From positions 1 to 42,765 of the forward strand of contig JACQKK010000208.1 in NCBI GenBank assembly GCA_016204605.1: 42,765 nucleotides of DNA, written 5' to 3'. Below, in pieces: positions 8,929 to 36,676 of the stretch (positions within the stretch are counted from its first letter, which is position 1; each line of letters opens with the position of its first letter). This DNA comes from Candidatus Lambdaproteobacteria bacterium (GTDB taxonomy: Bacteria > SAR324 > JACQKK01). Both the position numbers and the translations under genes were made by a program. Under the pieces are notes generated by a model. That model ran no database searches and was not told the DNA's origin. It saw only the letters and a program-made list of their open reading frames with translations.

Positions 8929-9794
8929 CAGCGACTCCGGGGGACCAGCGCGAAGTTCGGCCGGCCGGCGGTGCCGGTCACGGTGCCGTTGAGGCTGCCG
9001 TTGACCAGCATCGCATCGAAGAGCAGCCGCAGCGCACCGAGCCGCTGCAGCCAATCCGGGCGGAACGAGGCCTGCACGTTCAGCCGCAGGGCGCTCTGCT
9101 CGGGGCGGTCCAGCCGGGGCACGATGGAGCCGCTGACCGTCCCCTGCACGTCGCCGCGGAAGGCGAACTGCTCCACCTCCAGCGCCCGGTCGCTCGTCAG
9201 CTTCAGATCCACCCGCTCGATGCGGGCGGCGGGGAGCTGCACGCCCCCTTGCGCATAGGGGCCGATTTCGATGCCTTCCGCGTACCCGCTGAGCCGACCC
9301 TTGGGCAACTCATTGCCGATCGCCCCTGCCGGCGGGCGTTCGAGGGCCCCGTCCACGCGCAGGCTGCCCCGGATGGGCACCCTCAGCGCGCCTCGCAGCG
9401 CGGGTATCTCCTCGAAGCGGATATCCCGCAGGGCGAACGAGACTGCGCCGCGCCAGGGCACCAGCGCGTCGATCCGGCCCTTGTCGCCCAGCGTGGCGCT
9501 CACCGGCAGCCCGCGCCAGGGCCGCCACGGCACCGCCAGCCGCAGGTCGCGCAGCGACACGAGCGCGGTGGGGCGCGCGGCGCCGTTCAGCAGCAGCTCC
9601 ACCCGCTCGATCGTCAGCCCGCCCCAGCCCAGCTCCGCGGGGGTCAGCACCACGCCGAGCTGCGGCACGGCCAGGTTGACCCGCGTGGCCACGAACCGGG
9701 AGAGCGCCGCGCCCGGAAAGTGCGCGCTCAGCCCGAGCGCGAGCAGCGCCACGCCCAGCAGCGGCACCAGCAGGATCAGGAGCAGGCGCTTCAT
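8928..9794 (-). CDS. gspN: Type II secretion protein GspN
   Basis: A 288-residue protein with an N-terminal membrane anchor (LLLILLVPLLGVALLALGL) and a beta-rich periplasmic body made of repeated strands such as LTIERVELLLNG and ARIERVDLKLTSDRALEVEQ. This fits the GspN family, an accessory component found in only some type II systems and thought to act in the periplasm. Overlaps gspM (ATGA) and mltG (ATGA). Identity rests on position plus the AsmA-like strand pattern, so it is slightly less sure than the core genes. Confidence 0.8.
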   Translation of the reverse strand: MKRLLLILLVPLLGVALLALGLSAHFPGAALSRFVATRVNLAVPQLGVVLTPAELGWGGLTIERVELLLNGAARPTALVSLRDLRLAVPWRPWRGLPVSATLGDKGRIDALVPWRGAVSFALRDIRFEEIPALRGALRVPIRGSLRVDGALERPPAGAIGNELPKGRLSGYAEGIEIGPYAQGGVQLPAARIERVDLKLTSDRALEVEQFAFRGDVQGTVSGSIVPRLDRPEQSALRLNVQASFRPDWLQRLGALRLLFDAMLVNGSLNGTVTGTAGRPNFALVPRSR

Positions 9795-10276
9795 CAGTAG
9801 AGGGCCAGCACGCGCAGCTGCAGCCGCAGCAGGGTCTTGGAGCGGAAGGCGGGGGTGATCTCCATGGCGTCGACGACCAGTCGCGGTTCCGCGTTTTCGA
9901 TGGCGTGGATGAACTGGACGAGCTCGTCCAGATTCAGATCGTTCGCCCGCACCTCGACGCCCTCGAAGGCACGCTGGGCGCCGCCGGGCAGGGCGGTGAG
10001 CTGCACCCGCTCCTTCAGAGCGACCTGACCCGCCAGCCGTTCAAGGGTGCTGATGAGCGGCTGGCCGCCCGCCTGGGCCTCGGGCCGGCCCTGCAGCCGG
10101 GTCAGCTCGGCCTCGAGGGCCGCCGCCTGCCGCGCCGCCCGTTCGAGGCGGTCGGCCTCGGCGGCGAGCTGCTCCTCATACCGCCACACCACCTTCCCCC
10201 CAAGATACAGCCCCGCCCCCGCCAGCACCAGCGCCAGCACCAGCAGCAGCACCTTTTCGCGGTCGGAGAGCCTCAT
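9794..10276 (-). CDS. gspM: Type II secretion protein GspM
   Basis: A 160-residue bitopic inner-membrane protein: short cytoplasmic MRLSDREK, a membrane helix (LLLVLALVLAGAGLYLGG), a coiled-coil segment (EEQLAAEADRLERAARQAAALEAEL) and a ferredoxin-like periplasmic domain with ANDLNLDELVQFIHAIE. GspM pairs with GspL to form the assembly platform. One base separates its start codon from the gspL stop. Confidence 0.9.
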   Translation of the reverse strand: MRLSDREKVLLLVLALVLAGAGLYLGGKVVWRYEEQLAAEADRLERAARQAAALEAELTRLQGRPEAQAGGQPLISTLERLAGQVALKERVQLTALPGGAQRAFEGVEVRANDLNLDELVQFIHAIENAEPRLVVDAMEITPAFRSKTLLRLQLRVLALY

Positions 10277-11977: not shown

Positions 11978-13897
11978 TTACTGGAACACCTCCTCCGCCT
12001 GTCCCGCGCCACCCTCGGCCCCGACGTCGGCCAGGCCCCCGCCGGTCTGGAATCCGCCGAGCATGTCGGCGCGCTCCGTCGAGCGGCGGCGGGAGAAGGA
12101 GGCGAACGCCGTATCCTGGAAGCCCTTGGACACCGCATAGATGAACTCGTTGAGCACGTTCGCCATGTTCATCATGGTCGAGCTCTTGCGCTTGATGGTG
12201 ACGATGTCCACCTCGAGCAGCAGCCCCGCGTTCAGGTGGAACGGATTGATCTGGGCCGAGAACCTGGCCGATTCGATCTCCAGGAAGCGGAGGCGGCTCT
12301 CCAGGATCACCCGCAGGTCGGGGTTCGTCTCGCCGAACACGTCCTCGAGCCTGGCGAACATGACGGGGAAGCGGCCCTTGACGTCGTTCATGCGCTGCTC
12401 GTAGGTCGGGTTCGCCGCCACCGACGACGCGACGTCCTTCCCGGTCACGAACGTGATCTCGTTCCAATGCCGCACCGGCTCTTCCGCGGACTCGGCCTCG
12501 CCTTCCGGCTCGCCACTGGCCAGGTTGCCGAACCAGCCGCGGCGGGCGGGTTTCTCTGCGAGCAGCCGCTTCGAGAAGGCGATCCAGTCTTCCTTGCCCG
12601 TCTGCTCGAGGTGTTCGCGGAACACGGCCTCCACCACATCGCCCACCTCGTGCACGGTGCGCTCCAGCTCCTGGAGCTGCATCGTGCAGGCATCGCGGAA
12701 GGCCTTGATCTGGGCGTTGTCCAGATAGGCCAGCTCCATCTGGTAGCGCTCGTCGGGCAGGATTTCGGCGTTGGTCTCCGCGTACTCCCGGATGATGCAG
12801 CGGCGCGCCGACTTGTAGTTCTCGATGTGCTGGTAGCCCATCCGGCTCCAGTCGAGCACGTGGGTCATCGAGTTGACGGCGGTGTTGTAGCCGCGGTTGC
12901 GGATGTTCTCGTTCTCGACGACCTTGTACACGTTCTCCCGCACGCCGAGCGCATCGTACTCGCTGCCCTTGATCTCTGCCTGAAGCCCCTCGATCGCATC
13001 GAAGATCTTCTTCGCCATGTAGGTGAAGCGGCGGGAGCCGTCGGTCTCCTCATCGGAGGTATGGTTTTCCACGGCCTTGATGCGCTCGAAATTCTGCTCT
13101 TCGGCGGTGAGCTCGGGCTTGCCCTCGTCGACCAGGGACTCGTTGATCTTCTTGACTTCGACGTCCACGGCTTCCATCACCCGGCTCGTGATGAGCTGCT
13201 TGATGATGAAGGTGACGGGCGTCTGGTGCTGATAGATGGCGCTGATCAGCTCGCTGTCGAGGATGTTCAGCGCCAGCTTGATCTCCTGCACCGTGGTGGG
13301 CTTGTCGGGCAGATCGCGGAACGAGCACTTCACGATGGCGTAGGCGTTCTCGCCGCGCACGAAGGCCCCCACGTCGGTCTTGCGGCGCAGCAGGCTGTTG
13401 GTCAGGGTCTCGAGATCGTTCACCTCGCGCTGCACGTGGCCGTGCAGGTGGCCGAACATGTTGACGATCGACTTCTCGACCTCGCTGGTGTTGAACTTGT
13501 CGGCGCCGCCGACGCGATCGAGCAGGTACGAGATCGGGCGGGGGGCATAGCGGTTGAGGCCCCGCATCTCCTCCCCATCGACCATGTCGCGCACCTTCTT
13601 GCCCAGCTCGTCCTCCGCCGTGGTGAGGTAGCGGTTGAGCATGTTCTGGAAGGTCTGGTTGTAGTAGGCGTGGAGCTTCGACTTGATCGAGCCCATCACC
13701 TCCAGGCGACTGAGGGCCTCGGGCGGCAGCTTGGCATGGATGTGGTTCAGCACCTTGTCGACTTCCTCGTCGATCATGGTGCGCGCCTCGGAGTACTCGT
13801 CGCGCTCGTGCCGATTGAGGCTGTTGCGGGAGCCCACGGCGCTAGCCGTCTCCGGGTGGATCACGTTCGGACCGTGGACAATCATGTCATCGGCCAT
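11978..13897 (-). CDS. CfpA-like cytoplasmic filament protein, paralogue 1
   Basis: A 639-residue soluble protein with no signal peptide or membrane helix; highly charged and mostly helical. I recognise it from memory as a homologue of CfpA, the ribbon-like cytoplasmic filament protein of treponemes. Blocks shared with paralogue 2 (18026-19876): AVGSRNSLNR with RDEY (19-35), FNQ/YNQ-x-FQNM-x-NRYLT (78-92), EKSIVNMFGHLHGHVQR (141-157), RGENAYAIVKCSFRD (181-195), ENVYKVVENENIRNRGYNTA (321-340), SRMGYQHIENYKSAR (351-365), LPDERYQMELAYLDNAQIK (380-398), HWNEITFV (477-484), LLLEVDIVTIKR (559-570) and VLNEFIYAVSKGF (581-593). The C-terminal tail (about 615-639) is Gly/Ala-rich and differs from paralogue 2. 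The start ATG 13895-13897 follows CAGGAGCGATGCC. Last gene of the filament cluster, separated from the dikinase-like gene by a repeat-filled gap. Coding certainty is very high; the CfpA assignment needs a profile search. Confidence 0.75.
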   Translation of the reverse strand: MADDMIVHGPNVIHPETASAVGSRNSLNRHERDEYSEARTMIDEEVDKVLNHIHAKLPPEALSRLEVMGSIKSKLHAYYNQTFQNMLNRYLTTAEDELGKKVRDMVDGEEMRGLNRYAPRPISYLLDRVGGADKFNTSEVEKSIVNMFGHLHGHVQREVNDLETLTNSLLRRKTDVGAFVRGENAYAIVKCSFRDLPDKPTTVQEIKLALNILDSELISAIYQHQTPVTFIIKQLITSRVMEAVDVEVKKINESLVDEGKPELTAEEQNFERIKAVENHTSDEETDGSRRFTYMAKKIFDAIEGLQAEIKGSEYDALGVRENVYKVVENENIRNRGYNTAVNSMTHVLDWSRMGYQHIENYKSARRCIIREYAETNAEILPDERYQMELAYLDNAQIKAFRDACTMQLQELERTVHEVGDVVEAVFREHLEQTGKEDWIAFSKRLLAEKPARRGWFGNLASGEPEGEAESAEEPVRHWNEITFVTGKDVASSVAANPTYEQRMNDVKGRFPVMFARLEDVFGETNPDLRVILESRLRFLEIESARFSAQINPFHLNAGLLLEVDIVTIKRKSSTMMNMANVLNEFIYAVSKGFQDTAFASFSRRRSTERADMLGGFQTGGGLADVGAEGGAGQAEEVFQ

Positions 13898-14311
13898 GGC
13901 ATCGCTCCTGGTGTGTAGTGATCGCGGCGCACCGCCGCCCATGCCAATCGAAATCGGTTCGCGTCGTCGCACGAGCGGCCGCCGAGGCTTACACGATCGC
14001 CAACCCGGTGCGGCGAGCCGCTCCGGCCGTCCCAAAGTCGAAGTCCCCGACTCTAACGCCGCGCCTGCCGCCCCGTCAAGGTTGGCTGCCACGCCTGCGG
14101 GCCGCCCAGGCGGATTTGCACCGTATGGAGCGGGCCTGCGGCATGCGATCCCGCAGCGGCGGGGTTCGTTCCCTCCGGCGCGCCGCGCGCCTGCTACCTG
14201 GCGCCGCGCGCCTGCGGCATGCGATCCCGCAGCGGCGGGGTTCGTTCCCTCCGGCGCGCCGCGCGCCTGCTACCTGGCGCCGCGCGCCTGCTACCTGGCG
14301 CCGCGCGCCTG
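13898..14311. other. Gap between the Cfp-like and dikinase-like genes
   Basis: 414 bases. The half nearest the filament gene (13898-14135) has no credible ORF; it may hold a promoter for paralogue 1, but no good -35/-10 pair was found. The rest is the tandem repeat array described at 14136-14329. Confidence 0.5.
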
Positions 14312-14329
14312 CTACCTGGCGCCGCGCGC
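14136..14329. repeat. Tandem 21-bp / 76-bp repeat array at the 3' end of the dikinase-like gene
   Basis: Two identical 76-bp units (14136-14211 and 14212-14287), each made of a 55-bp part plus a 21-bp part, followed by two more copies of the 21-bp part (14288-14308, 14309-14329). On the minus strand the 21-mer encodes Ala-Arg-Gly-Ala-Arg-stop, i.e. the last codons and TAG stop of the gene ending at 14312. The array is thus a local duplication of the gene terminus into the downstream gap. Not a CRISPR: there are no variable spacers. Confidence 0.9.
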
Positions 14330-16930
14330 CTTGAGCAGGTGCTGCGCCACCGCGAGCTTGGCGATCGGCACGCCATAGGGGGTGCAGGTGACGAAGTTCA
14401 GCTTGCTGCCGAACGCGAAGTTGATGTTGACGGGGTCCGAGGCATAGTTCCCGTACAGCCCGATCCGCAGATCCGGCCGCGTCATCTTGCCGAAATGGGC
14501 GGCGATCGAGATCAGCTCCTTCACCGGCATGGAGAGAATCTGGAACGGGTTGTCCTTGAGAATGTCGTACTGGGTATAGGAAGGCAGAAACAGGTTCACG
14601 TCGTCGTAAGACATCCCGTTCGTGGTCTGGGTGAGCATGTTCGCATCGATGGCGAAGAAATCCGATTGCTTCGCCAGATGGCCGGCCATCAAGGCGGCGG
14701 CCGGCATTTCGATCGCCGCGCCCAGCTTGTAGCGGAACGGGAACTCGCCCCGCTTGAGCTCCGCCAGCAGGTCCTTCTCGACGCCGCGGATGCCGCGGAT
14801 GATGGTGCCCTCGATGTTCCGCCCGTTGCGGATGAAGCGCATCTCGGCATCGCCGATGATCGCCGGCACCATCAGGTCGAAGTCGAGCGCACGCTTGCCA
14901 TCCTCGCAGTAGGCGAGCGCGCCGCGGAAAATCGCCTCCGCCTGCACCTCGTACAGCTCGGGATACGAGATGGCGATGCGGCTGCCGCGCAACCCCAGCA
15001 TGGGGTTGAGGTTGCGCAGTTGCTCGGCGCGGGCGGCGAGCGTTTCCGCCGTCAGCCCCTTGTGCTTCTTCTGCACCGCGGCGAAGAGCTGCTGCTGCTC
15101 CGCGGGCGTGTGCGGGAGAAAATCGTAGAGGGGGCTGTTGAGCAGGCGCAGCACCACCTTCTTGCCGTCGGCGGCGCGGAACAGCTCCACCACGCGCTCT
15201 TCCAGGTTCCGGGCCAGTCGCGCCAGCGCCGGCTTGCGGCTGGCCGGTTCGTTGAGCAGCAGCAGCACCTCCTGGAACAGCTCGCTGGTGCCCGGCATGC
15301 GGAGCAGGTTGTCCACGGCGTACAGGCCGATCCCCTCGGCCCCGAGCTTGAGCGCCACGTCGATGTCCTTGAAGGACTCGGCGCTGGACCACACCTGGAA
15401 GCCCGAGGTGAGGTTGGTTAGGGCGCCCATGAACTCTTCCAGGCCGTTGCTCGACGTGTCCGGATAGACGAGCTTGGCCGCGCCGAGCCACATCGTCGGC
15501 TTGGTGTAGGTCGGCACCTCGAGCGAGATCGTGTCGAATTCCTTGATGCGATGACCCCCCAGCTCGACGTAGCCGTCGTGGTACTTGACGTCCTCGTACA
15601 GCAGGCAGGGCTTGCGCAGGCTGCGGGCGACGACGGGGGCGTGCGAGGCGTACCCGCCTTCGGAGGCGATGACGGCCTTGCCGATCTCGATCGCTTCCAC
15701 ATCCGCCGCATCGGTGTGGGGCATGATCAGGATCAGATCGGGGTTGATCCCCATCAGCGAGCAGCGCCGGTACTCCTCGAGCAGCGCTTTGGTGCTGAAG
15801 GCGACCCGGGCCACCGCCGCGCCGGGGGAGCCCGCGGTGCCGCCCACGATCTTGGTCATGCCACGGGTGCTCTGGTAATCGATCACCGGGTGCAGCAGGT
15901 CCTGCAACTGGGCCGGCGGCACGGAGGTGGCCAGCCGCTCCCGGGCGATGAGCCCCTTGCGGTGCAGATCCAGCAGCGTGCGCAGCTCGGCCTGGGTGGA
16001 CTTGGCATCGACCGGGTTCTGCTCGACCAGCCAGAACGCGCTATCCTCGATCACGAACTTGATCTGGCGGATATCGAGAAACTTCTCCTCGAGCCGGCTG
16101 ACGACCTTGCGCAGCTCGTCGAGGTACTGGGCCGGCAGCTCGTTGATGTCCTTGCCGTCCTCGGGCAGCGTGTCGAACTCGTTGTGGCCGAAGTGGCCGC
16201 TCAGCCGCGGCTCGCCCGTCACGATGTCGCGCGAGTAGAAGCCGCCGTTGTAGGAGCGGTCGCCGAAGTTGCCGTAGACCATCATCTGCACGACCAGCCC
16301 GGCCTCGATGCCCTCGTTCATGGGATCGTTCAGGTACTGCTCATTGAGCCCGGCCAGCACCATGCGCAACTGCTCGTAGCCGTTCTGCGGGAAGTCGGGC
16401 AGCAGCTTCTCGCGCACCAGCTCGCACAGCTCCTTGTGGGAGGCTTTGGGCTTCGATTCCACCAGCGACTTGAAATCGCCCGCCTTCCTGCCGAGGAAGC
16501 GCACCCCGATGTTCTCCATGAAGTGCAGATACTCGTGGTACGCGAAGTCTTCCCCGCAGTACTTGGCGAAACCGGCGGCGACCGTATCGTTGATGCCCAC
16601 CGTGTGCACCGAGCGGATCGTCCCGATCTGGATCGAGGGTGACACCACGATCTTGAACAGCATGGGCCGTTCCGGGGCGTTGAAGGTCTTGCCCGTCATC
16701 TTTTCGATCTTCTTGACCTCGCCCTCGAGGTCGTTCAGCCGCAGCTCCTCCTTGAGCTTGCCGCCCGTCACCGTGGCAGACTCGATCAGCAGCCCCGGCG
16801 CGATCGGCACCCCGATCTGCGCCAGTTGCAACATGTTGCGACCCCGCAGGCCGAAGCGCTCCTGCAGGTCATCGCCTTCGAGATATGCCTGCTGATTGAA
16901 ATGAATGAGCTCGACCATCGTGCCACGCAT
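14312..16930 (-). CDS. Degenerate pyruvate phosphate dikinase-like protein
   Basis: 872 residues, the full length of pyruvate phosphate dikinase (PPDK, about 874), with all three domains. The central swivelling domain keeps the phospho-histidine motif GGYASHAPVVAR (His430). The C-terminal barrel keeps NPMLGLRGSRIAISYPELYE (642-661) and AAIEMPAAAL (Glu741). Lost residues: the PEP arginine of GIGLxRTE is Ala538 (GIGLYAVD); the Mg-binding Asp of TNDLTQ is Met765 (ANMLTQ); the catalytic Cys of GICGEHGG is Tyr826 (GLYGNYAS). In the ATP-grasp domain the VRSGA arginine segment reads KIVVSPSI (93-100), and the LQTR end reads VEQN (302-305). PEP/pyruvate chemistry is therefore unlikely; a scaffold or regulator is inferred. 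Its ATG overlaps the stop of the HPr-like gene (ATGA), so the two are translationally coupled. From memory, a ppdK gene also lies near cfpA in Treponema pallidum. Confidence 0.88.
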   Translation of the reverse strand: MRGTMVELIHFNQQAYLEGDDLQERFGLRGRNMLQLAQIGVPIAPGLLIESATVTGGKLKEELRLNDLEGEVKKIEKMTGKTFNAPERPMLFKIVVSPSIQIGTIRSVHTVGINDTVAAGFAKYCGEDFAYHEYLHFMENIGVRFLGRKAGDFKSLVESKPKASHKELCELVREKLLPDFPQNGYEQLRMVLAGLNEQYLNDPMNEGIEAGLVVQMMVYGNFGDRSYNGGFYSRDIVTGEPRLSGHFGHNEFDTLPEDGKDINELPAQYLDELRKVVSRLEEKFLDIRQIKFVIEDSAFWLVEQNPVDAKSTQAELRTLLDLHRKGLIARERLATSVPPAQLQDLLHPVIDYQSTRGMTKIVGGTAGSPGAAVARVAFSTKALLEEYRRCSLMGINPDLILIMPHTDAADVEAIEIGKAVIASEGGYASHAPVVARSLRKPCLLYEDVKYHDGYVELGGHRIKEFDTISLEVPTYTKPTMWLGAAKLVYPDTSSNGLEEFMGALTNLTSGFQVWSSAESFKDIDVALKLGAEGIGLYAVDNLLRMPGTSELFQEVLLLLNEPASRKPALARLARNLEERVVELFRAADGKKVVLRLLNSPLYDFLPHTPAEQQQLFAAVQKKHKGLTAETLAARAEQLRNLNPMLGLRGSRIAISYPELYEVQAEAIFRGALAYCEDGKRALDFDLMVPAIIGDAEMRFIRNGRNIEGTIIRGIRGVEKDLLAELKRGEFPFRYKLGAAIEMPAAALMAGHLAKQSDFFAIDANMLTQTTNGMSYDDVNLFLPSYTQYDILKDNPFQILSMPVKELISIAAHFGKMTRPDLRIGLYGNYASDPVNINFAFGSKLNFVTCTPYGVPIAKLAVAQHLLKARGAR

Positions 16931-17946
16931 CAGAAAAGATTGAGCAGCTTGTTGACATCTTTCTTGAGGAACTGCCCGAAGCGGATGCTGGCACCCTCGA
17001 ACAGGTAGCGTTGCAGCTTCGCCACGCCCTTGATCTCATCGCCCGCCACGGAGAACAGGATCACGTCGCCGTGCTTGACCTTGCCCCATTTGAATAACGC
17101 ATTGATGTTGTTGACCTTCTGCCCATCGTGGAACACGTCCACGTCCAGCCCTGCGTATTTGGCCTTGTAGCTGGCGAGAATGTTCTTCCACGCCTCGACG
17201 TTGCCGTTGTGGAACAGCTCGTTGGTCACCTGGATGCTGTACTTGGGCGTGACCTTGCGCTTGCCGCCCGCGGTGGGCGGTGGGGGCGGCGCGGCCGGCG
17301 CGGCCTGCTCCGGCTCTGCTTCCTCGGCCCGGGCCGCCGGTGCGGCGGCCGGCGCGGCCTCCTGCGCCGGCGCAGCGGGAGCGGGGGCCGGCGCGGGCGC
17401 GGCCACGGCTTTCGGGCGGGCGACGAGGGCGGGGTCGTTGAAGCGCTCGAGCCCCCGGGCATCGTGGCCGGTGAGCAGGTCGCGCAGGGCCTCGAGCGCA
17501 TCCGCTTCGAGAGCGGCATCCTCCGGCCGTACGGCTTTGGCGTAGAGCACCAGCAGCTCCTCGCGGCTCAGCTCCTGCACGCCTTCCCATTGGGCGCTCA
17601 CCTTGGGATTGATCGCGCAGATGCCGAGCTGCGGGTGGTGGTAGGCGACGATCAGATCGAGCCGGTTCCACTTGGCGGTGGTCTCCCGGATCGGATCGAA
17701 GCTCTGCACGTTCGCGGGAAGATTGAAGGACAGGCTCGCGTACTGCATCCGGTCCACGACCAACGCGTTCAGGATCGGCGCGATCTGCTGCTTTTCGACC
17801 TTCTTGCTCTTCTCCAGCTCGTCGATCAGATCGGCCAGGTTGGTGCCCTGGTTGATCTGCTCGAGGATGCCGGACACCAGGCGGAAATGGCCCAGCGACT
17901 TGTTGAAGCCGGTGCGGGTGCTGAGTGACGCGTACTCGTTGATCAT
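16930..17946 (-). CDS. Two-domain protein with a C-terminal HPr-like domain lacking the active His
   Basis: 338 residues. N-terminal domain (1-175) is helical and of no family I recognise (GFNKSLGHFRLVSGILEQIN). Residues about 176-228 are an Ala/Pro-rich flexible linker. The C-terminal domain (about 235-318) aligns without gaps to the phosphocarrier HPr: VTNEL at 240-244 matches VTNKL, ILASYKAK matches the helix-1 end, and KVNNINALFKWGKVKHGDVI (277-296) matches the HPr segment ending in VNxKSIMGxxxLG...GDxI. The phosphorylatable His of HPr (motif L-H-A-R-P) is Asn247 and the Arg is Asn249; a His sits one place earlier (246). Phosphotransfer is therefore unlikely. It starts 79 bases after the second filament gene, with an AGGAAGGGG ribosome-binding site. 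Pairing with a degenerate PPDK recalls the EI-HPr complex of the phosphotransferase system. Function unknown. Confidence 0.85.
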   Translation of the reverse strand: MINEYASLSTRTGFNKSLGHFRLVSGILEQINQGTNLADLIDELEKSKKVEKQQIAPILNALVVDRMQYASLSFNLPANVQSFDPIRETTAKWNRLDLIVAYHHPQLGICAINPKVSAQWEGVQELSREELLVLYAKAVRPEDAALEADALEALRDLLTGHDARGLERFNDPALVARPKAVAAPAPAPAPAAPAQEAAPAAAPAARAEEAEPEQAAPAAPPPPPTAGGKRKVTPKYSIQVTNELFHNGNVEAWKNILASYKAKYAGLDVDVFHDGQKVNNINALFKWGKVKHGDVILFSVAGDEIKGVAKLQRYLFEGASIRFGQFLKKDVNKLLNLF

Positions 17947-18025: not shown

Positions 18026-19876
18026 TCAGGTCGCCGCCCCCTGGTCGAACTTCTCCACCTCGCCCGTGACGTGGCTGCGGCGGTGGAACGTGGAGGCGGT
18101 GCGATCCACGAATCCCTTCGAGATGCCGCCCAGGAACTCGTTCAGCACGGCGGTAATGCCCTTCACCGTCACCCGCAGCCGCTTGATGCTGGTGATCGAG
18201 ATTTCGAGCAGCAAGCCCGGCTGGAGATGGTAGGGGTTGACCTTCGACATGAAGTCCAGGAACTGGCTTTCCAGGAAATTCAGGCGCTGCTCCAGGATCA
18301 CCCGGTGGTCCGGGAAGCCCAACTCGAAGACATCCTCGAGCTTCCGGCGCAGCGCGATGAAGCGCTGCTTGTACTCCTGGATCACGATCTCGTAGGTCTG
18401 ATTCATCTCCTCGAGCGAGGTCAGCCGGCGCTGTACGAACGTGATCTCGTTCCACTGGCGGGCCCTGGCCGGCTCCTCCTCCTCGCCGCCTGTCTGGAAC
18501 CAACTGCGGCGCTTGGCCGGCTTGTCCCGATCCACGGTCGAGCCGAGCAGGTCGTCCCAGTCGCGCCGGCCCGCCTTCTCCTTCTCCTCCCGGTACACCT
18601 GTTCGACCACCTCCCAGAGCCGGGTGATCTCGCGGCGGAACTCCAGCAGTTGCTGGGAGTAGGCGACCTGGTGCTCCTTGATCTGCCGGCTGTCGAAGTA
18701 TTGCAGGTTGATCTCGTAGCGCTCGTCGGGCAGGCGCGTGATGTCGTTCTCCTCGTATTCCTGCACCAGCAGCTTCCGGGCATGCTTGAAGTTCTGCACG
18801 TACTGGTAGCCCATCCTGCTGTTGTCGAGGATCGAGGTCAGCATGTTGATGGCGGTGTTCCAGCCGCGGGTGCGGATGTGGTTGTCGTCCAGCAGCTTGG
18901 TCACCCCTTCGCGCACGGCCAGCGGGTCGAAATCGATCTTGTTCACCTCGCCGGCCAGGCCGGAGACCCGATCCAGGAAGTGCTTGGGCAAGAGCTGATA
19001 CCGGCGCGAGCTCTCGCCGTCGGTGTCGTCGGTGTAGTTCTCGATGGCCTTGACCTTCTCGAAGATCGCCTCGTGCGGGGTCAGCGGCGGCTTGCTTTCC
19101 ACCGCGAGCTGCTGGTTGATCTCATCCACCTCGCGTTCCATCAGCGTCTGGATGTGGTTCGCGATCACGTCCTTGATGAGATGCTCGGAGAGCAACTGGT
19201 GGGGGACGATCGGGCTGATCAGCTCGGCATCGAGCACGTTGATGGCCAGCTTGACGTCCACCACCTTGTCCGGCTTGCGGTAATTGTCCCGGAACGAGCA
19301 CTTGACGACGGCGTACGCGTTGTTCCCGCGGATGAACTGCCCCACGTCCTTGTGCTGCAACAGCAGGCCGGTCGACAGGTTCTCGAACAGCGACACGCCG
19401 CGCTGCACGTGGCCCTGCAGGTGCCCCATGATGTTCACCATCGACTTCTCGACTTCGCCGGTGTTGAACAGCTCGGAACCCCCGATGTGGTTGATGAGCT
19501 CCGCGATTTCCCGGGAGGAGTAGCGGTTCAGGTTGCGGTGTTCGTCCTTGTCGACCAGATCCCGCACCTTCTTGGTCATCTCGTCTTCGACGGAGGTCAG
19601 GTAGCGGTTGACCATGTTCTGGAACGACTGGTTGAAGTAGGTGTGCAGGTATCCCTTGATGTTCCCCATCACCTGGACGTCCTGCAGCACCTCGGGCGGC
19701 AACTTGGCCTGGATGTGGTTCAGAATCTTCTCCACCTCCTCGTCGATGACGAGCCGACTCTCGACGTACTCGTCCCGACCATCCCGGTTGAGGCTGTTCC
19801 GGGAGCCGACCGCACTCGGTTCTTCCGGGTGCAGCTCGTTGGGGCCTTTCAGAAAGTCCGACTGTGCCGTGGTCAT
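18026..19876 (-). CDS. CfpA-like cytoplasmic filament protein, paralogue 2
   Basis: A 616-residue soluble, charged, mainly helical protein, collinear with the paralogue at 11978-13897. Shared blocks: AVGSRNSLNR (22-31), LPPEVLQDVQVMGNIK (59-74), FNQSFQNMVNRYLT (81-94), EKSMVNIMGHLQGHVQRG (143-160), RGNNAYAVVKCSFRD (183-197), SRMGYQYVQNFKHAR (353-367), LPDERYEINLQYFDSRQIK (382-400), QWNEITFVQRR (474-484), LLLEISITSIKRL (555-567) and VLNEFLGGISKGFVD (577-591). Compared with treponemal CfpA (from memory) the order of blocks is the same. The ATG 19874-19876 has GGAGG 8 bases upstream; an in-frame TTG five codons earlier is less likely. No membrane segment or nucleotide-binding motif is visible, so assembly would not use an actin- or tubulin-type cycle. 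First gene of the cluster. Confidence 0.75.
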   Translation of the reverse strand: MTTAQSDFLKGPNELHPEEPSAVGSRNSLNRDGRDEYVESRLVIDEEVEKILNHIQAKLPPEVLQDVQVMGNIKGYLHTYFNQSFQNMVNRYLTSVEDEMTKKVRDLVDKDEHRNLNRYSSREIAELINHIGGSELFNTGEVEKSMVNIMGHLQGHVQRGVSLFENLSTGLLLQHKDVGQFIRGNNAYAVVKCSFRDNYRKPDKVVDVKLAINVLDAELISPIVPHQLLSEHLIKDVIANHIQTLMEREVDEINQQLAVESKPPLTPHEAIFEKVKAIENYTDDTDGESSRRYQLLPKHFLDRVSGLAGEVNKIDFDPLAVREGVTKLLDDNHIRTRGWNTAINMLTSILDNSRMGYQYVQNFKHARKLLVQEYEENDITRLPDERYEINLQYFDSRQIKEHQVAYSQQLLEFRREITRLWEVVEQVYREEKEKAGRRDWDDLLGSTVDRDKPAKRRSWFQTGGEEEEPARARQWNEITFVQRRLTSLEEMNQTYEIVIQEYKQRFIALRRKLEDVFELGFPDHRVILEQRLNFLESQFLDFMSKVNPYHLQPGLLLEISITSIKRLRVTVKGITAVLNEFLGGISKGFVDRTASTFHRRSHVTGEVEKFDQGAAT

Positions 19877-20396: not shown

Positions 20397-21773
20397 TCAC
20401 GGCTGGTTCGGGTCGCCGACAGGCAGGCTCTGGGGACGGCGGGTGAGGCGGCCCAAGGGCTGCAATTCAGGCACTTCCTTCTGCGCTCCCGCACCCAGCT
20501 GCTTGAATCTGCGCGCTGTGGCGGACAACCGGGATTCAAGCGATTTCAACGCCGCATCATGCGCATCGACGGCGCTGTCGAGCGCTTTGCCGATCTTGCC
20601 GAAGTGCTCGGCCACCAGGACGATTCGATCGGACATTTCCCGGCCGAGCGCACTGATTTCTTGAGCGCCCAACGCCACGTGCTCCTGGCGCCAGCCATAC
20701 TCGATCGCCAGCAGCAGTGCGAACAGGCTGCTCGGCGTGGCGATCACGATACGTTGCCGCAAAGCCCATTCCACCAGTTCGGGGTCTCGCTCGGCCGCTG
20801 CGGACAGGAACGCGTCATTGGGCATGAACAACACCACGAATTCGAGCGAACCGGGGAACTGACTCCAGTAGGCTTTGGACGCCAAATTCTTCACGTGCTG
20901 TTTGACGTGCCCAGCGTGACGATCCAGGGCGGCGATGCGGTTGTCCTCGGTGACGGCCTCGGCGTGCTCCCGGTATGCATCGAACGGTACTTTTGAATCG
21001 ACCACGATGTCACGCCCGGCCGGCAGCCGCACCACCATATCCGGGCGCAGCCGACCATCTTCCGCCCCGACATGGACCTGTTCATCGAAATCGCAGTGCG
21101 CGGTCATACCCGCGAGTTCCACGATTCTGCGCAACTTGATCTGACCCCAGTTCCCCCGACTCTGCGAGGAACTCAGCGCGTTGGTGAGCTTCGCGGTCTC
21201 CGCGCCGAGCTGTTGCTGCCCCAGAGCGATCTGCTGCAAGTGCCGACCCAGGCTCCCCAGTTCGTTCTGCCGCTTCTGCTCCAACTCGTCGGCGGCCTTC
21301 TTGAACTCTATGACGCGATCCTGCAGGGGCTTCAGGAGCTCTCCAATGGCTTTCTGGCGCGATTCCAGGTTCGCGTTGGCACTTTCCTGCAACGCCGAGA
21401 ATTTCTGCTCGGCGAGGGCGAGGAAGCTCGCGTTGTTGCCCGCGAGCGCCTCGGTGGCCAGAGCCTTGAACGTGTCGGGGAGCCTCACCTGCGCTTGCTC
21501 GAGCTGGGTCCTCTGGTCGGCGAGGTTTTGCTCACTATTCTTCAGGCCAGTCTCGGCCTTGGCCTTGTCCGACTCCGCCTGGAGCAAGCGTTCCTGCAAC
21601 TCCTTCTTTTCGGCTCCCAGGTTGCCGATCTGGGCACGCAATTCCTCGCTCAGGGCGGCCGCGGCCTCGAAATGGGCCTTGCCGAGCCGCCAAGCCGCGA
21701 ATCCCACGAGTGCCATGCAGATCAGGGCGCCGACAATGAAGGCGATCACCGCACCCACGGAAACCTCGCCCAT
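20397..21773 (-). CDS. rmuC: DNA recombination-limiting protein RmuC
   Basis: 458 residues: an N-terminal membrane helix (VIAFIVGALICMALVGFAAW), a long coiled coil (about 35-200) and the RmuC nuclease-fold domain. Recognisable RmuC motifs: RGNWGQIKLRRIVELAGM, RPDMVVRLPAGRDIVVDSKVP split over strand and turn, FVVLFMPNDAFLSAA and RQRIVIATPSSLFALLLAI. E. coli RmuC limits inversion at short inverted repeats. ATG 21771-21773 is preceded by AAGGAGGTAAGCC, a near-perfect Shine-Dalgarno. It is the first minus-strand gene of the run but is 520 bases from the filament cluster, so it is likely a separate unit. Confidence 0.94.
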   Translation of the reverse strand: MGEVSVGAVIAFIVGALICMALVGFAAWRLGKAHFEAAAALSEELRAQIGNLGAEKKELQERLLQAESDKAKAETGLKNSEQNLADQRTQLEQAQVRLPDTFKALATEALAGNNASFLALAEQKFSALQESANANLESRQKAIGELLKPLQDRVIEFKKAADELEQKRQNELGSLGRHLQQIALGQQQLGAETAKLTNALSSSQSRGNWGQIKLRRIVELAGMTAHCDFDEQVHVGAEDGRLRPDMVVRLPAGRDIVVDSKVPFDAYREHAEAVTEDNRIAALDRHAGHVKQHVKNLASKAYWSQFPGSLEFVVLFMPNDAFLSAAAERDPELVEWALRQRIVIATPSSLFALLLAIEYGWRQEHVALGAQEISALGREMSDRIVLVAEHFGKIGKALDSAVDAHDAALKSLESRLSATARRFKQLGAGAQKEVPELQPLGRLTRRPQSLPVGDPNQP

Positions 21774-28266: not shown

Positions 28267-28698
28267 ATGAGCGCAGACACATCCGAAGAGAAGAGCGGGA
28301 TCCTGCATCCGCACCGGGCCTTGCACCGGAGACACCTCGAGGCCGTCCTCTATCTGGCCGACAAGATGGGCCAGGCCGATGGCCAGTCGGTGCCCTCGGA
28401 GCTCAAGATTGCCACCACCCTCGCCGAAGCGGGCGGGCTCAAGGGGTACCGGCAGCAGCAGTGGTACCGGGATATGAGCGAGGACGAGGCCTGCCGGCGT
28501 CTCGATCTCGACGTGGCCAAGCGCGGCGCGCTGGTGGTGCTGGCCCTGGTGCTCAAGGCCGATGTGCAACGCAAGCCGGAGGAGCAGAGCTACTTCAAGC
28601 ACGTGCGCGAAAAGCTCGGCGCCCCGCCGGTGAGCGTGCCGGTGGAACTCGATGCGCACATCGCGCTGGCGCTGGAATACTTCAAGGGCAAGGATTGA
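28267..28698 (+). CDS. Small helical protein of unknown function
   Basis: 143 residues, predicted soluble and all-helical. The motif spread HRRHLEAVLYLADKMGQADG, ELKIATTLAEAGGL and AKRGALVVLALVLKADVQ loosely resembles TerB/DjlA-type helical bundles (an A-D-G after helix 1 is typical), but the match is not firm. ATG 28267 follows GGGGAAC. Seven codons into the downstream gap begins the ketopantoate-reductase-like gene (46 bases away), suggesting co-transcription. I do not recognise the family with certainty. Confidence 0.7.
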   Translation: MSADTSEEKSGILHPHRALHRRHLEAVLYLADKMGQADGQSVPSELKIATTLAEAGGLKGYRQQQWYRDMSEDEACRRLDLDVAKRGALVVLALVLKADVQRKPEEQSYFKHVREKLGAPPVSVPVELDAHIALALEYFKGKD

Positions 28699-28744
28699 GC
28701 GTGCCGCCAGGACGCCAGGGCGCGGGGCAGCGACGCGGGGCGAG

Positions 28745-29668
28745 ATGCGGATAGCCATCATGGGGGCCGGCGCCGTGGGCGGCTACTACGGCGCTCTGCT
28801 CGCCCAGGCCGGCGAGGCCGTGAGCTTCATCGCCCGCGGCGCCCAGCTCGATGCCCTGCGCCGGCGCGGCCTGCGGCTGCGCACCGACCGCGGCGAGATC
28901 GCCCTGGCCCGCGTCGAAGCCAGCGACGAGCCGGCCCGCATCGGCGCCGTGGATGTGGTGCTGGTGACCGTCAAGGCATACGACCTGGCGGCCGCGGCCC
29001 AGGCGCTGCGGCCCCTCGTCGGGCCGGAAACCGCCGTGATCCCCCTGCTCAACGGCGTGGACAGCGCGGAGCGGCTCGCGGCCGTGGTCGGCGAGCGGGC
29101 GGTGCTGGGCGGCCTGGCCTACATCTCCGGGCGGATCGAAGCCCCGGGCGTGGTGCGCCAGACGGGGCCCCTGAACCGCCTGCTGTTCGGCGAGCGCGCC
29201 GGCGGCCCGAGCGAGCGCGGCCGGCGCATCGAGGCCGCCTTCAGGCAGGCCGGGCTCACGGCCGAGCTGGTGGCCGATATCCGCAAGGAGCTCTGGCGGA
29301 AGTTCCTGTTCATGGCCCCCTCGGCCGGCGTGTGCGCGGTCACCGCCAGCCCGCGCGGTGCGGTGATGCGCGATCCCGATACGCGCGCGCTGTTCGTCGC
29401 GGCGCTGGAGGAGCCCCTGGCCCTGGCGCGCCGGCTGGGGATCGCGCTCGACGCGGACATCGAGCGGCAGGTGCTCGCCCTCAGCGATCAGCAGCCCGCC
29501 GATTCCAAGCCCTCCATGCTGTTCGATCTCGAACAGGGGAAGCCGCTCGAGCTGGAGGCGTTCAGCGGCACCGTGGTGCGGCTGGGGCGCGAGCTGGGGA
29601 TCGCCACCCCCACCCACGGCATGATCTACGCGTCGCTCAAGCACCGGGCGGGCGGCAAGGCCGCCTAA
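28745..29668 (+). CDS. 2-dehydropantoate 2-reductase family protein
   Basis: 307 residues. NADPH-dependent reductase fold: MRIAIMGAGAVGGYYGALLA is the ApbA/PanE nucleotide-binding start (GAGAVGGYYG). ARGAQLDALRRRGLRL follows, then VLVTVKAYDLAAAAQALRP, VIPLLNGVDSAERL and the C-terminal catalytic KELWRKFLFMAPSAGVCAVT (Lys) with DSKPSMLFDLEQGKPLELE. These are all PanE family marks. Family members beyond pantothenate synthesis are common, so the substrate is not certain. It converges with the recombinase-like gene (40-base gap). Confidence 0.9.
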   Translation: MRIAIMGAGAVGGYYGALLAQAGEAVSFIARGAQLDALRRRGLRLRTDRGEIALARVEASDEPARIGAVDVVLVTVKAYDLAAAAQALRPLVGPETAVIPLLNGVDSAERLAAVVGERAVLGGLAYISGRIEAPGVVRQTGPLNRLLFGERAGGPSERGRRIEAAFRQAGLTAELVADIRKELWRKFLFMAPSAGVCAVTASPRGAVMRDPDTRALFVAALEEPLALARRLGIALDADIERQVLALSDQQPADSKPSMLFDLEQGKPLELEAFSGTVVRLGRELGIATPTHGMIYASLKHRAGGKAA

Positions 29669-33139: not shown

Positions 33140-36100
33140 ATGCGACTCAAAGAGATCAAGCTGCACGGCTTCAAGTCGTTCTGCGACGGCAGCGAATTCG
33201 TCTTCCGCGACAAGGGCATCACGCTGATCGTCGGGCCCAACGGCTGCGGCAAGAGCAACGTGGCCGATGCCATCCGCTGGGTGCTGGGCGAGCAGAGCCC
33301 GCGTCTGCTGCGCGGGGGCAGCATGGGCGACGTGATCTTCAACGGCAGCAGCTCGCGCAAGCCGATGGGCCGGACGGAGGTGACGGTCACCTTCGACAAC
33401 GGCGACGGCGGCGCGCTGGAGAAGTACCGGGACTTCGCCGAGATCGCCGTCACCCGCCGCCTGTACCGCTCCGGGGAAAGCGAGTACCTGATCAACAAGC
33501 TGCCCTGCCGGCTGCTCGACGTGCGCGAGCTGGTGATGGATACCGGCGCCGCCGGGCGCTCCTACTCCATCGTCGAGCAGGGGCGGGTGGAGGAGTTCGT
33601 CACGGCGAGCCCCGCCGAACGGCGCCTGTTCCTGGAAGAGGCCGCCGGGATCGTGCGCTACAAGACCCGGCGCATCGCCGCGGAGCGCCGCCTCGAACAG
33701 ACCCGCCAGAACCTGCTGCGCGTCCAGGACCTCGAGGGGGAGCTGCGCCGGCAGGAGAGCGCGCTGCACGACCAGGTCAACAAGGCCACCGCGTATATCG
33801 CCCTGCGCGACGAGATCGGCGGCCGGGCGCTGCGGCTGGCGTGGTACCGCCTCACCCGCAGCCGGGCGCGCTGCGGGGAGCTGGAACGCGCCTGGAGCCA
33901 GGCCCGCGACGATACCGCGGCGGAGCAGCAGGCCCTGGCCCGCCTCCAGGCCGACCTGGAGCGGGTCGGGCTCGATCAGACGCGCCTGGAGGGGCTGCTG
34001 CGCGATCAGCGCCAGGCCGTGCGCGCCCTCGAGCAGGAGCTGCAGCAGGGCGAGACCCGGCTGGCCGTGGGGCGCCAGAACGAGGAGAACGGCCGGCGCT
34101 GGGTGCAGCAGCACCAGCAGGCCCTCGCCGAGGCGGAGCAGGCCCAGGCGGCGGCCGCCGCCCAGCGGCAGGAGCTGCACGGCCAGGCGCAAGCGCTGCT
34201 GCTGCGGGAGGCGGAGCTCCAGGCGGCCATCGGCGCCGCCACGGCGGTGTTCGCCGAACGCGAGGCCAGGCGCCAGCAGGCGGAGGCGGCCATCAAGCAC
34301 GTGCAGGAACGGCTGATCGAGTGCCACACCACCCTCGTCGGCATCGCCAACCAGCGCCAGTTCCTCGAAGAACGGGCGGCGGATGCGGAGCGCCGTCGCG
34401 CCGGGCTGGCCGACCAGCTCGCCGCCGAGCAGCGGGAGCACGCCGCCGCCCTGGCGCGGCTCGGCGAGGCGACCCGGCGCCAGGGAAGCCTGCGCCTCGA
34501 GCGGGAGCGGCACGAGGCGGAGCGGCGCGGCCTGGCCGAGGCGCTGCTCGCGGCCGGCGCCGAGCTCGATCAGCGCCGCACCCGGCTCGCCGCCCAGGAG
34601 CGCGAGGCGCTCGCCGGGCGCTCCCGGCTGGAGTCCCTGCGCGAGATCGCCGCCAGCCACGAGGGCTTCGGCGCGGCGGTGCGCGCCGTGCTCGACTGGG
34701 TCGAGGCCGAGCCCGCCACGCGCGACGCCCTGACCATCCTCGGCGCGCTGGCGGAGCTGGTGGACGTGCCCGCCGACCTGGTCGAGGAGGCGGGGGCGTT
34801 CCTGGCGCCGTTCCTCGAACTGATCGTGGTGCGCGAAGGGGCCCGGCTGCCCGAGCTCCAGCGGCGGCTCGCCGCGCGGGAGATCGGCGGCGTGCGGTTC
34901 CTCGCGCTCGATGCCCTGCCTGCGCCGCCGCAGGCGCCTGCGGGCGGCGGGGTGCTGGCGGAGCGGCTGGGTTTCGTGCCCGGCCTGGAGGCGCTGGGGC
35001 CGGCCCTGTTCGGCGGCGTGGCGCTGCACGCGTCGGCGGAGCTGCCCCACCCGCTGCCCGCCGGCGAGGGCGCGGGCCGGGAATGGCTCGGTCGCCACGG
35101 GGCATTCCACACCGACGGCCGGCGCATCGTCACCCTCGGCCGGCCCCAGGCTCCCGCCGAGGGCATCCTGCGCCGCCGGGCGGAGATGGCCGACCTCGCC
35201 GCGCGGCTCGCCGCGCTCGACACCGCACGGGAAGAGGCTGCCCAGGCCGCGGCGGCGGCCGCAACCGCGCTGGATCAGCTCCAGGCGCGGGCGCGCGAGG
35301 AGGATGCCCGCATGCAGCAGCAGGCGCTGGCGCTGGCCCAGCTGGACCAGGAGATCGCCCAAGGCCGGCGGGAAGGGGAACGCCTCGCCCGGGTGGTCGC
35401 AGCCCTGGCGGCGGAGCGGGAGCGGCTCGGCCAGGAGGCGGGCGGGTTCGCCACGCAACGCGAGGCGCTGGCCCGCGAGCATGACCTCTGGCAGGGCCGG
35501 CGCACCGCGCTCGAGGCGGAGCTGGCGCAGGCCCGCGGGCACAGCGAGTCGGCGCGGCAGGAGGCGGCCGAGCACGGCCAGCGGCTCACCGAGCACAAGG
35601 TCGCCCACGGGCAGGCGCTCTCCCGGCGCGAGAACGCCCAGGCCCGGCTGGCCGCGCTCGATACGGAGCGGGGGCTGCTCGATGGGCGCCACACGGAACT
35701 CGCCGCGGAGCTGGCCCGGCAGCAGGAACGGCTCGCCGCCACCGCGACCGAGATCGCGGCGCTGCGCCAGTTGCTCGGGGCGCAGCAGACGCAGCTGGCC
35801 GAGGCGCGCCGTGCGTTGCGCGGCCATCTCGAGCAGCACGACCGGCAGGAGCAGCAGCGGCAGGGCTGGACCGAGCAGTCCCGCCAGGCCCAGGCCCGGC
35901 TGGATGGGGCCCGCACCCGGGCGCACGAGGCGGAAGTCGCGCTCACCGCCGAGCGCCTGCGCGCCGAGCAGTGGGCGCAGGAGGCCCAGGGCGATCCGCC
36001 CCCGCAGCCCGCCCAGCCCTTCGACGAGCGCGCGGCGGAAGACGAGCTGGCGCGGGCCCGGCAGCGGCTGGGGCGGATGGGTGCGGTCAACCTCGCGGCG

Positions 36101-36676
36101 CCGGAGGAATATGAGGCCCTGCGCCAGCGCCTCGCGTTCCTGGAGCGGGAAAAGGGCGATCTCGAGCGGGCGAGCGCGGACCTGGAGGAGTCGATCCGCC
36201 GCATGAACCAGGAGTCCCGCCGCCGCTTCAAGGAGACCTTCGACCAGGTCAACGGCAAGTTCGGGGAGATTTTCACCCGCATCTTCGGCGGCGGGGAGGC
36301 ACGGCTCGTGCTTACCGACTCGGAGGACCTGCTGCTGGCCGGGGTGGATATCGTGGCTCAGCCGCCCGGCAAGACGCTGCAGGGCCTCAACCTGCTTTCC
36401 GGGGGGGAAAAGGCGCTGACGGCGATTTCGCTGATCTTCGCCTTCTTCCTCAGCAAGCCCAGCCCGTTCTGCCTGCTCGACGAGGTGGATGCGCCCCTGG
36501 ACGACGTGAACGTCACGCGCTTCAACCGCCTGGTGCAGGGTATGACAGACCGTACGCAATTCATTATCATCACGCACAACAAGCGCACGATGGAGATCGG
36601 CGACGTGCTGTACGGCGTCACCATGGAGGAGCCCGGCGTGTCCAAGGTCGTCTCGGTCGACCTGGCGCAACGCTGA
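33140..36676 (+). CDS. smc: Chromosome segregation protein SMC
   Basis: 1178 residues, full SMC length. N-terminal Walker A GPNGCGKSN (32-40) with the adjacent VADAIRWVLGEQSPR. Two long coiled coils (about 170-500 and 670-1000) flank a hinge starting near SHEGFGAAVRAVLDWVE (about 504-640). The C-terminal head has the ABC signature LLSGGEKALTAISLIFAFF and Walker B PFCLLDEVDAPLDD. SMC entraps DNA with ScpA/ScpB to organise and segregate the chromosome; neither kleisin gene is in the window. The ATG at 33140 follows GGGAGAGGC. Confidence 0.97.
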   Translation: MRLKEIKLHGFKSFCDGSEFVFRDKGITLIVGPNGCGKSNVADAIRWVLGEQSPRLLRGGSMGDVIFNGSSSRKPMGRTEVTVTFDNGDGGALEKYRDFAEIAVTRRLYRSGESEYLINKLPCRLLDVRELVMDTGAAGRSYSIVEQGRVEEFVTASPAERRLFLEEAAGIVRYKTRRIAAERRLEQTRQNLLRVQDLEGELRRQESALHDQVNKATAYIALRDEIGGRALRLAWYRLTRSRARCGELERAWSQARDDTAAEQQALARLQADLERVGLDQTRLEGLLRDQRQAVRALEQELQQGETRLAVGRQNEENGRRWVQQHQQALAEAEQAQAAAAAQRQELHGQAQALLLREAELQAAIGAATAVFAEREARRQQAEAAIKHVQERLIECHTTLVGIANQRQFLEERAADAERRRAGLADQLAAEQREHAAALARLGEATRRQGSLRLERERHEAERRGLAEALLAAGAELDQRRTRLAAQEREALAGRSRLESLREIAASHEGFGAAVRAVLDWVEAEPATRDALTILGALAELVDVPADLVEEAGAFLAPFLELIVVREGARLPELQRRLAAREIGGVRFLALDALPAPPQAPAGGGVLAERLGFVPGLEALGPALFGGVALHASAELPHPLPAGEGAGREWLGRHGAFHTDGRRIVTLGRPQAPAEGILRRRAEMADLAARLAALDTAREEAAQAAAAAATALDQLQARAREEDARMQQQALALAQLDQEIAQGRREGERLARVVAALAAERERLGQEAGGFATQREALAREHDLWQGRRTALEAELAQARGHSESARQEAAEHGQRLTEHKVAHGQALSRRENAQARLAALDTERGLLDGRHTELAAELARQQERLAATATEIAALRQLLGAQQTQLAEARRALRGHLEQHDRQEQQRQGWTEQSRQAQARLDGARTRAHEAEVALTAERLRAEQWAQEAQGDPPPQPAQPFDERAAEDELARARQRLGRMGAVNLAAPEEYEALRQRLAFLEREKGDLERASADLEESIRRMNQESRRRFKETFDQVNGKFGEIFTRIFGGGEARLVLTDSEDLLLAGVDIVAQPPGKTLQGLNLLSGGEKALTAISLIFAFFLSKPSPFCLLDEVDAPLDDVNVTRFNRLVQGMTDRTQFIIITHNKRTMEIGDVLYGVTMEEPGVSKVVSVDLAQR

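Follow-up and report, generated by a model that had tools for sequence, protein, structure and literature searches.

A predicted tandem HPr-fold protein and a dikinase-derived partner encoded beside CfpA filament proteins in SAR324 bacteria and spirochaetes

The closest described systems

In the phosphotransferase system (PTS), Enzyme I (EI), which has a phosphoenolpyruvate (PEP) site and a phospho-His, stands beside HPr, the carrier whose active His lies where helix A begins. Pyruvate phosphate dikinase (PPDK) has its His and PEP domains in common with EI, while Crh is an HPr relative without the active His, formed by a single domain and regulated at Ser46. CfpA is a cytoplasmic filament protein known from Treponema. 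Genes reminiscent of these systems lie together in a stretch of 42,765 nucleotides of contig JACQKK010000208.1 (assembly GCA_016204605.1) from a Candidatus Lambdaproteobacteria bacterium of the SAR324 lineage, hereafter called the window, in which the gene order on the minus strand is cfpA1, P0001, P0002 (PPDK-like) and cfpA2. P0001, the gene under study, appears to encode a protein with two HPr folds; we tentatively favour the view that this protein and its PPDK-like neighbour form an EI-like relay attached to CfpA filaments, which in the clade of the window has either decayed or come to be fed in another way.

How does this trio of cfpA, P0001-type and PPDK-like genes compare with the known systems? 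The likeness to the PTS lies in the pairing of an enzyme having a PEP site and a phospho-His with an HPr-fold protein whose invariant His246 directly precedes the predicted helix A, and TIGR01417 matches the T. pallidum-type enzyme at 1e-29. Unlike EI, the enzyme of the trio descends from PPDK and lacks the HPr-binding domain of EI; unlike HPr, the carrier has two HPr folds, no equivalent of Arg17 and no PF00381 match; and the genomes bearing the trio carry separate ordinary EI and HPr, encoded in the genome of the window on contigs G000:C67 and C171. The spirochaete partners resemble PPDK (TIGR01828) in domain order, length, phospho-His and PEP site, whereas the partner of the trio differs from it in the replaced ATP-grasp residues, in scores below the family cut-off and in forming a separate clade. 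The N-terminal domain of P0001 recalls Crh in being an HPr fold without the His, and the Crh structure 1zvv_J occurs among its structural matches only, but Crh is a single-domain protein. Both genes flanking the pair belong to the CfpA family, known from Treponema. In the literature on CfpA we found no description of its operon partners as filament parts, nor did the literature searched on Treponema and SAR324 CfpA filaments and their partners, which included few subscription journals, present the three genes as a single system.

P0001: predicted folds and the residue His246

The original prediction, drawn from the sequence of the window, had placed in P0001 a C-terminal HPr-like domain linked by an Ala/Pro stretch to an unknown helical domain. 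The open reading frame is real (338 residues on the minus strand) and the linker is present at residues ~173-231. In the full-length model, built from 14 sequences (predicted local distance difference test, pLDDT, 76.8; predicted template modelling score, pTM, 0.50), a helical stretch at residues 11-66 is followed by a beta-alpha-beta-beta-alpha-beta-alpha domain at ~69-161, the disordered linker and, at ~233-321, another domain with that topology. The best Foldseek rows for this model are nearly all HPr. With VIA-align every HPr row fell on residues 69-161 and none on the C-terminal domain; this apparent refutation of the C-terminal HPr fold was overturned once the domain had been predicted alone. 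Modelled in this way from 57 sequences (pLDDT 91.7, pTM 0.86), the C-domain gives Foldseek rows 1-20 that are all HPr or Crh (prob 0.93-1.00, E 0.006-0.034) and 28 top VIA-align rows that are likewise all HPr or Crh, with Z up to 7.7, a value within the band that VIA-align itself rates middling; GlmM (6.3) and aIF2 alpha (5.9) follow. The N-domain resembles HPr more closely than the C-domain does: its Z against HPr and Crh structures reaches 10.2, with 26 rows of at least 8.2 and superpositions of 1.8-2.4 root-mean-square deviation across 79-81 residues, and conservation reveals no His in its active-site region. The supposed helical domain thus contains a second HPr fold, of stronger resemblance than the one predicted. 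Since both folded parts resemble HPr structurally, P0001 is, as modelled, a tandem HPr-fold protein.

This assignment needs to be qualified with respect to sequence. Searches of Pfam, NCBIfam, PHROGs and PDB sequences gave no credible family for P0001; at E 0.1 none of the 57 C-domain members matched PF00381 (HPr), nor did P0001 at E 1; and HHalign comparison of the P0001 domains with 30 real HPrs was not significant (Prob 1.5). Hence the HPr claim rests on the predicted fold and not on sequence, so that of the C-terminal domain originally proposed the fold stood and the sequence match did not, and sequence-profile tests give no confirmation of common descent with HPr. HHalign between the N- and C-domains of P0001 was not significant either, so an internal duplication is not demonstrated. 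The RxLR effector 5zc3_B, which headed the PDB profile matches of the C-domain (E 0.00084 for the whole sequence, 0.45 for the best stretch), was taken as a chance match.

The C-domain alignment comprises 62 family members (61 reading frames plus P0001). Residue 246 is His in 59/59 aligned members with a letter there, followed by a residue 247 that is Asn in 56, His in 2 and Tyr in 1, and by Gly248 and Asn249 (58/58 each). With three more Treponema members of the T. pallidum type (L272, L274 and L275), His246 is found in 61/61 matched trio members, a tally that leaves out four members cut by contig ends. The stand-alone paralogues of the C-domain, which in SAR324 lie away from cfpA, have His246 in none of nine cases (E, E, G, G, V, T, T, R, E); the Glu-Ala-Trp downstream of the missing site is retained in all nine. 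The His is therefore absent exactly where the PPDK-like partner gene is not adjacent. These stand-alone copies occur in nine SAR324 genomes (L002/L012, L031-L034, L036 and L038-L040), including that of the window (L002/L012, at G000:C175:1310-1621), where the neighbouring reading frame is presumably a purH relative.

Helix A starts at residue 247 in both models, with His246 immediately ahead of it, and His15 of HPr likewise stands right before helix A. The alignment of the preceding strand is best with Asn247 on His15 (score 1.98), and VIA-align places residue 233 on HPr residue 1; helix hydropathy is best with Asn249 on His15 (r 0.69); only the helix N-cap and the insignificant HHalign alignment (Prob 1.5) favour His246 there. 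Asn247 and Asn249, proposed at first to occupy the His and Arg sites of HPr, are located as claimed; given the invariant His246 alongside and the contradictory registers, the statement that Asn has replaced the His was rejected as unsafe. Nor do these residue patterns lead us to assert a classical HPr active site in the C-domain.

The PPDK-like partner, its distribution and the layout of the locus

The predicted coupling of P0001 to a relative of PPDK was borne out, P0002 being adjacent to it and PPDK-derived. Against TIGR01828 (cut-off 843), P0002 scores 435 bits, the T. pallidum-type protein 609 bits and the full-length operon-type members 435-690 bits; the operon-type proteins form one clade versus 34 ordinary PPDKs (Shimodaira-Hasegawa-like approximate likelihood ratio test, SH-aLRT, 100). 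We compared 53 operon-type members with 16 ordinary PPDKs, all 16 of which retain every residue checked. Among the 53, the ATP-grasp residues K22 and E323 are kept in none (50/53 being basic at the latter position) and R92 in two; at the same ATP end, the Asp of the SMPGMMDT loop is kept in none and R337 in one, while Q335 persists in 50. The phospho-His of the swivel domain, which we take to be H455 in C. symbiosum numbering and the equivalent of P0002 His430, is present in 53/53. The pattern is sharper in the spirochaete members: K22 has become Arg and E323 Arg or Lys in 43/43, R92 is kept in 0/43, and all 43 retain H455, R561, R617, R666, E745, N768, D769 and C831. A second SAR324 family has all seven PEP-site residues in 4/4 members. 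The spirochaete partner is 24% identical to ordinary PPDKs across the ATP half, 32% across the His domain and 48% across the PEP domain, versus 59, 58 and 59% for ordinary PPDKs among themselves. Throughout the family, then, the part that has been lost appears to be the ATP end and not the PEP end. Because the replaced positions are themselves conserved (Arg at K22, a basic residue at E323), the ATP half looks rebuilt, as if its surface had been put to new use rather than left to decay. SAR324 genomes have another PPDK match elsewhere. In one SAR324 relative (L076) the PPDK-like gene, G005:C45:21993-24587, contains an in-frame TAG.

When a CfpA alignment was used to scan genome contigs, 78 loci were left, all from spirochaetes or SAR324 as judged by title or by a contig shared with SAR324-class genomes. 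The order cfpA, P0001-type, PPDK-like is found in 51/78, in both groups, and a further seven show one partner before the contig ends. The 20 loci with cfpA alone comprise 13 of a separate SAR324 paralogue and seven of spirochaetes, two of which (L125 and L129) belong to genomes whose other cfpA has the partners. The third cfpA in the genome of the window (L010, G000:C15:25601-27406) is of the type scoring highest against NF040882, and its relatives do not have the partner genes beside them. Among the matches listed in a survey of 134 Treponema-family genomes (completeness filter 90), cfpA, the C-domain and the operon-type PPDK each occur in the same 27 genomes (G098, G121, G122 and G124-G147); the partner genes are neighbours in all 27, and in 26 of these cfpA adjoins them on a single contig. 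Ordinary PPDK above the cut-off is present in 115/134 of these genomes among the matches listed.

Among the spirochaetes with the trio is the syphilis bacterium, T. pallidum. In genome G134, whose trio (L272, G134:C1) is intact, the PPDK at 810752-813313 is the only one among the matches listed; numbering from the start codon puts a Pro at residue 655 (nucleotide 811414) and an Ala at residue 869 (nucleotide 810772). The same residues at the same nucleotide positions are published for TP0746, which makes G134 T. pallidum itself or a strain very close to it. In this protein the ATP-grasp motifs are replaced by GIRGR, LLKVVLSP and REVRFT, the PEP half is full, and its P0001-type partner carries NELFHNGNVEAW. 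Pyruvate kinase was not found in G134, while it was present in four other searched genomes and in all 14 controls, nor is there an ordinary PPDK among the matches listed, only the ATP-grasp-altered operon type; the step from PEP to pyruvate there consequently lacks an explanation. TP0746 is taken as an ATP-making enzyme in the passages dealing with it (PMC10013896). In T. denticola, TDE0842-0844, adjacent by number, are cfpA, a conserved hypothetical protein and a 'pyruvate phosphate dikinase', and are reported as co-repressed in the relevant portion of one study (PMC3914990). Of the 16 major bands identified in the envelope fraction of T. denticola, the first is TDE0844 and the third CfpA; the authors attribute the presence of CfpA to its inner-membrane anchoring and pass over the dikinase without comment in that section (PMC3931704). 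The presence of both proteins in one fraction is co-fractionation, not binding.

In the window itself, the dikinase-like gene lies directly downstream of P0001, as had been claimed, with the junction reading TGATG, a 1-base overlap instead of the ATGA overlap first described; the gap from cfpA1 to P0001 is 79 bases. The suggested tie to filament proteins was supported, since both genes flanking the pair exceed the NF040882 cut-off of 500 bits (Table 1).

Table 1. Features of the CfpA locus in the window
Feature	Positions	Strand	Basis
cfpA copy 1 (P0005), cytoplasmic filament protein CfpA	18026..19876	-	NF040882, 703 bits; start M at 19876
P0001, predicted tandem HPr-fold protein, 338 aa, gene under study	16930..17946	-	Open reading frame
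N-terminal predicted HPr-fold domain of P0001, residues 69-161	17464..17742	-	Foldseek, VIA-align, conservation
Ala/Pro-rich linker of P0001, residues ~173-231	17254..17430	-	Sequence; pLDDT <50 at 194-227
C-terminal predicted HPr-fold domain of P0001, residues ~233-321	16984..17250	-	Domain-alone model, Foldseek, VIA-align
His246 codon of P0001, residue immediately preceding helix A	17209..17211	-	Family alignment, models
PPDK-derived partner P0002, 872 aa	14312..16930	-	TIGR01828, 435 bits; residue tables
His430 codon of P0002, equivalent of the PPDK phospho-His	15641..15643	-	53/53 operon members
cfpA copy 2 (P0003)	11978..13897	-	NF040882, 736 bits; start M at 13897

Two tandem arrays, of 76-base and 21-base units, occupy 14130-14331, beginning in the final codons of the PPDK-like gene and reaching into the space ahead of cfpA2. 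Other genes around the locus encode a type II secretion protein M-like product (9794-10276, minus), RmuC (20397-21773, minus), ketopantoate reductase (28652-29668, plus) and SMC (33140-36676, plus). A simple scan for promoters and terminators was uninformative (promoter-like 1 versus 0.9 expected; terminator-like 2 versus 5.8 expected).

A possible relay on CfpA filaments and its rivals

The reading we prefer, with the reserve already expressed, can be set out as follows. P0001 would be an accessory protein of CfpA filaments, in which a first, His-less HPr fold is joined by the Ala/Pro linker to a second one bearing His246 at the start of helix A, and P0002 would be a PPDK whose ATP-grasp half has been rebuilt with loss of the ATP and Mg residues, its swivelling phospho-His domain and PEP domain being retained. 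In the ancestral and spirochaete form, PEP would most likely phosphorylate the His of the PPDK-like protein, which would then hand its phosphate on to His246 of the filament-bound HPr-fold protein; the assembly or anchoring of the filament would thereby track the PEP/pyruvate state. The SAR324 clade of the window would stand at a late stage, its PEP pocket decayed and both His still in place, with the relay either supplied from elsewhere, for instance by the ordinary EI and HPr of the genome, or surviving just as a docking module or structural pair. We infer the phosphotransfer, its direction and its effect on the filament from the observed trio, its co-occurrence and its residue pattern, combined with the predicted fold. 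Such a relay accounts for a perfect PEP half and His alongside an altered ATP half, as well as for the recruitment of an HPr fold and for the loss of His246 when the partner is not adjacent. These data suggest that a phosphate relay may once have run on the filament, or may still do so.

Several points weigh against this relay. Five spirochaete loci (L126, L176, L179, L180 and L182) have cfpA without partners in the 7.7-9.8 kb downstream, implying that the filament may not strictly require them, and the co-occurrence statistics for the trio ignore kinship. The registers of the putative active site disagree (247 by the strand, 249 by helix hydropathy, 246 by the N-cap and an insignificant HHalign alignment), and no Arg stands at the position of HPr Arg17 if His246 is the active His. 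The EI HPr-binding domain PF05524 was not matched in P0002 at E 1. Finally, the clade of the window retains the phospho-His in 6/6 members and has lost R561 and D769 in 6/6, R617 in 5/6, N768 in 3/6 and C831 in 2/6; R561, D769 and C831 are gone from P0002 itself, which makes the use of PEP unlikely here. The earlier contention that phosphotransfer was lost may consequently hold for this clade, given its damaged PEP site, but not as a general statement, considering that His246 is kept in 61/61, the phospho-His of the partner in 53/53 and the whole PEP site in 43/43 spirochaetes.

The principal alternative, scaffolding, would have the HPr-fold domains and an inactive dikinase bind one another as well as CfpA, without any movement of phosphate. 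We consider it possible but rather doubtful: an operon kept despite a PEP site eroded in all six members of the window clade, the missing Arg17 equivalent, the N-terminal HPr fold without His and, in the portion of the T. denticola work on the envelope fraction, the abundance of both the PPDK-like protein and CfpA (PMC3931704) speak for it, while it leaves unexplained why 43/43 spirochaetes keep seven PEP-site residues and the phospho-His, and why His246 is constant in 61/61. Next to it comes a working PPDK with a re-wired nucleotide half, merely anchored to the filament by the HPr-fold protein as adaptor. Its best argument is G134, where some other enzyme must convert PEP to pyruvate if pyruvate kinase is missing, as the search indicates, and where this type of PPDK is the only one among the matches listed; Q335, retained in 50/53, and the conservative change of K22 to Arg agree with it. 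It is nevertheless unlikely, in view of the disappearance of R92 (2/53 kept), E323 (0/53, 50/53 basic), the SMPGMMDT loop Asp (0/53) and R337 (1/53), and because an ordinary full-length PPDK is also present in 18 of 23 spirochaete genomes tested (19 when the partial one in G109 is counted). Even harder to sustain, in our judgement, is the original prediction of an Asn at the phosphate site and an EI-HPr interface retained for binding only; the strand register and the placement of residue 233 on HPr residue 1 speak for it, as does the broken PEP site of the partner in the window, but the His246 next to Asn247 is invariant in the trio and missing precisely in the copies that lack an adjacent partner gene.

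In biological terms, the relay that we favour leads to a wider proposal, which we regard as possible though doubtful: The trio could constitute a second, PPDK-derived phosphotransfer system, in which an ATP-blind dikinase moves the phosphate of PEP to a tandem HPr-fold protein on CfpA filaments, and the 'PPDK' of T. pallidum would be a filament component instead of an ATP-yielding glycolytic enzyme. To our knowledge, the role and control of treponemal cytoplasmic filaments have long been an open question. Should the three proteins form a single machine, two of them would have been overlooked under the annotations of hypothetical protein and metabolic enzyme. For the energy metabolism of T. pallidum, either the model of an ATP-making TP0746 or our reading of its ATP-grasp residues would need revision; and, if the proposal is true, the cytoskeleton of spirochaetes would read the glycolytic state directly.

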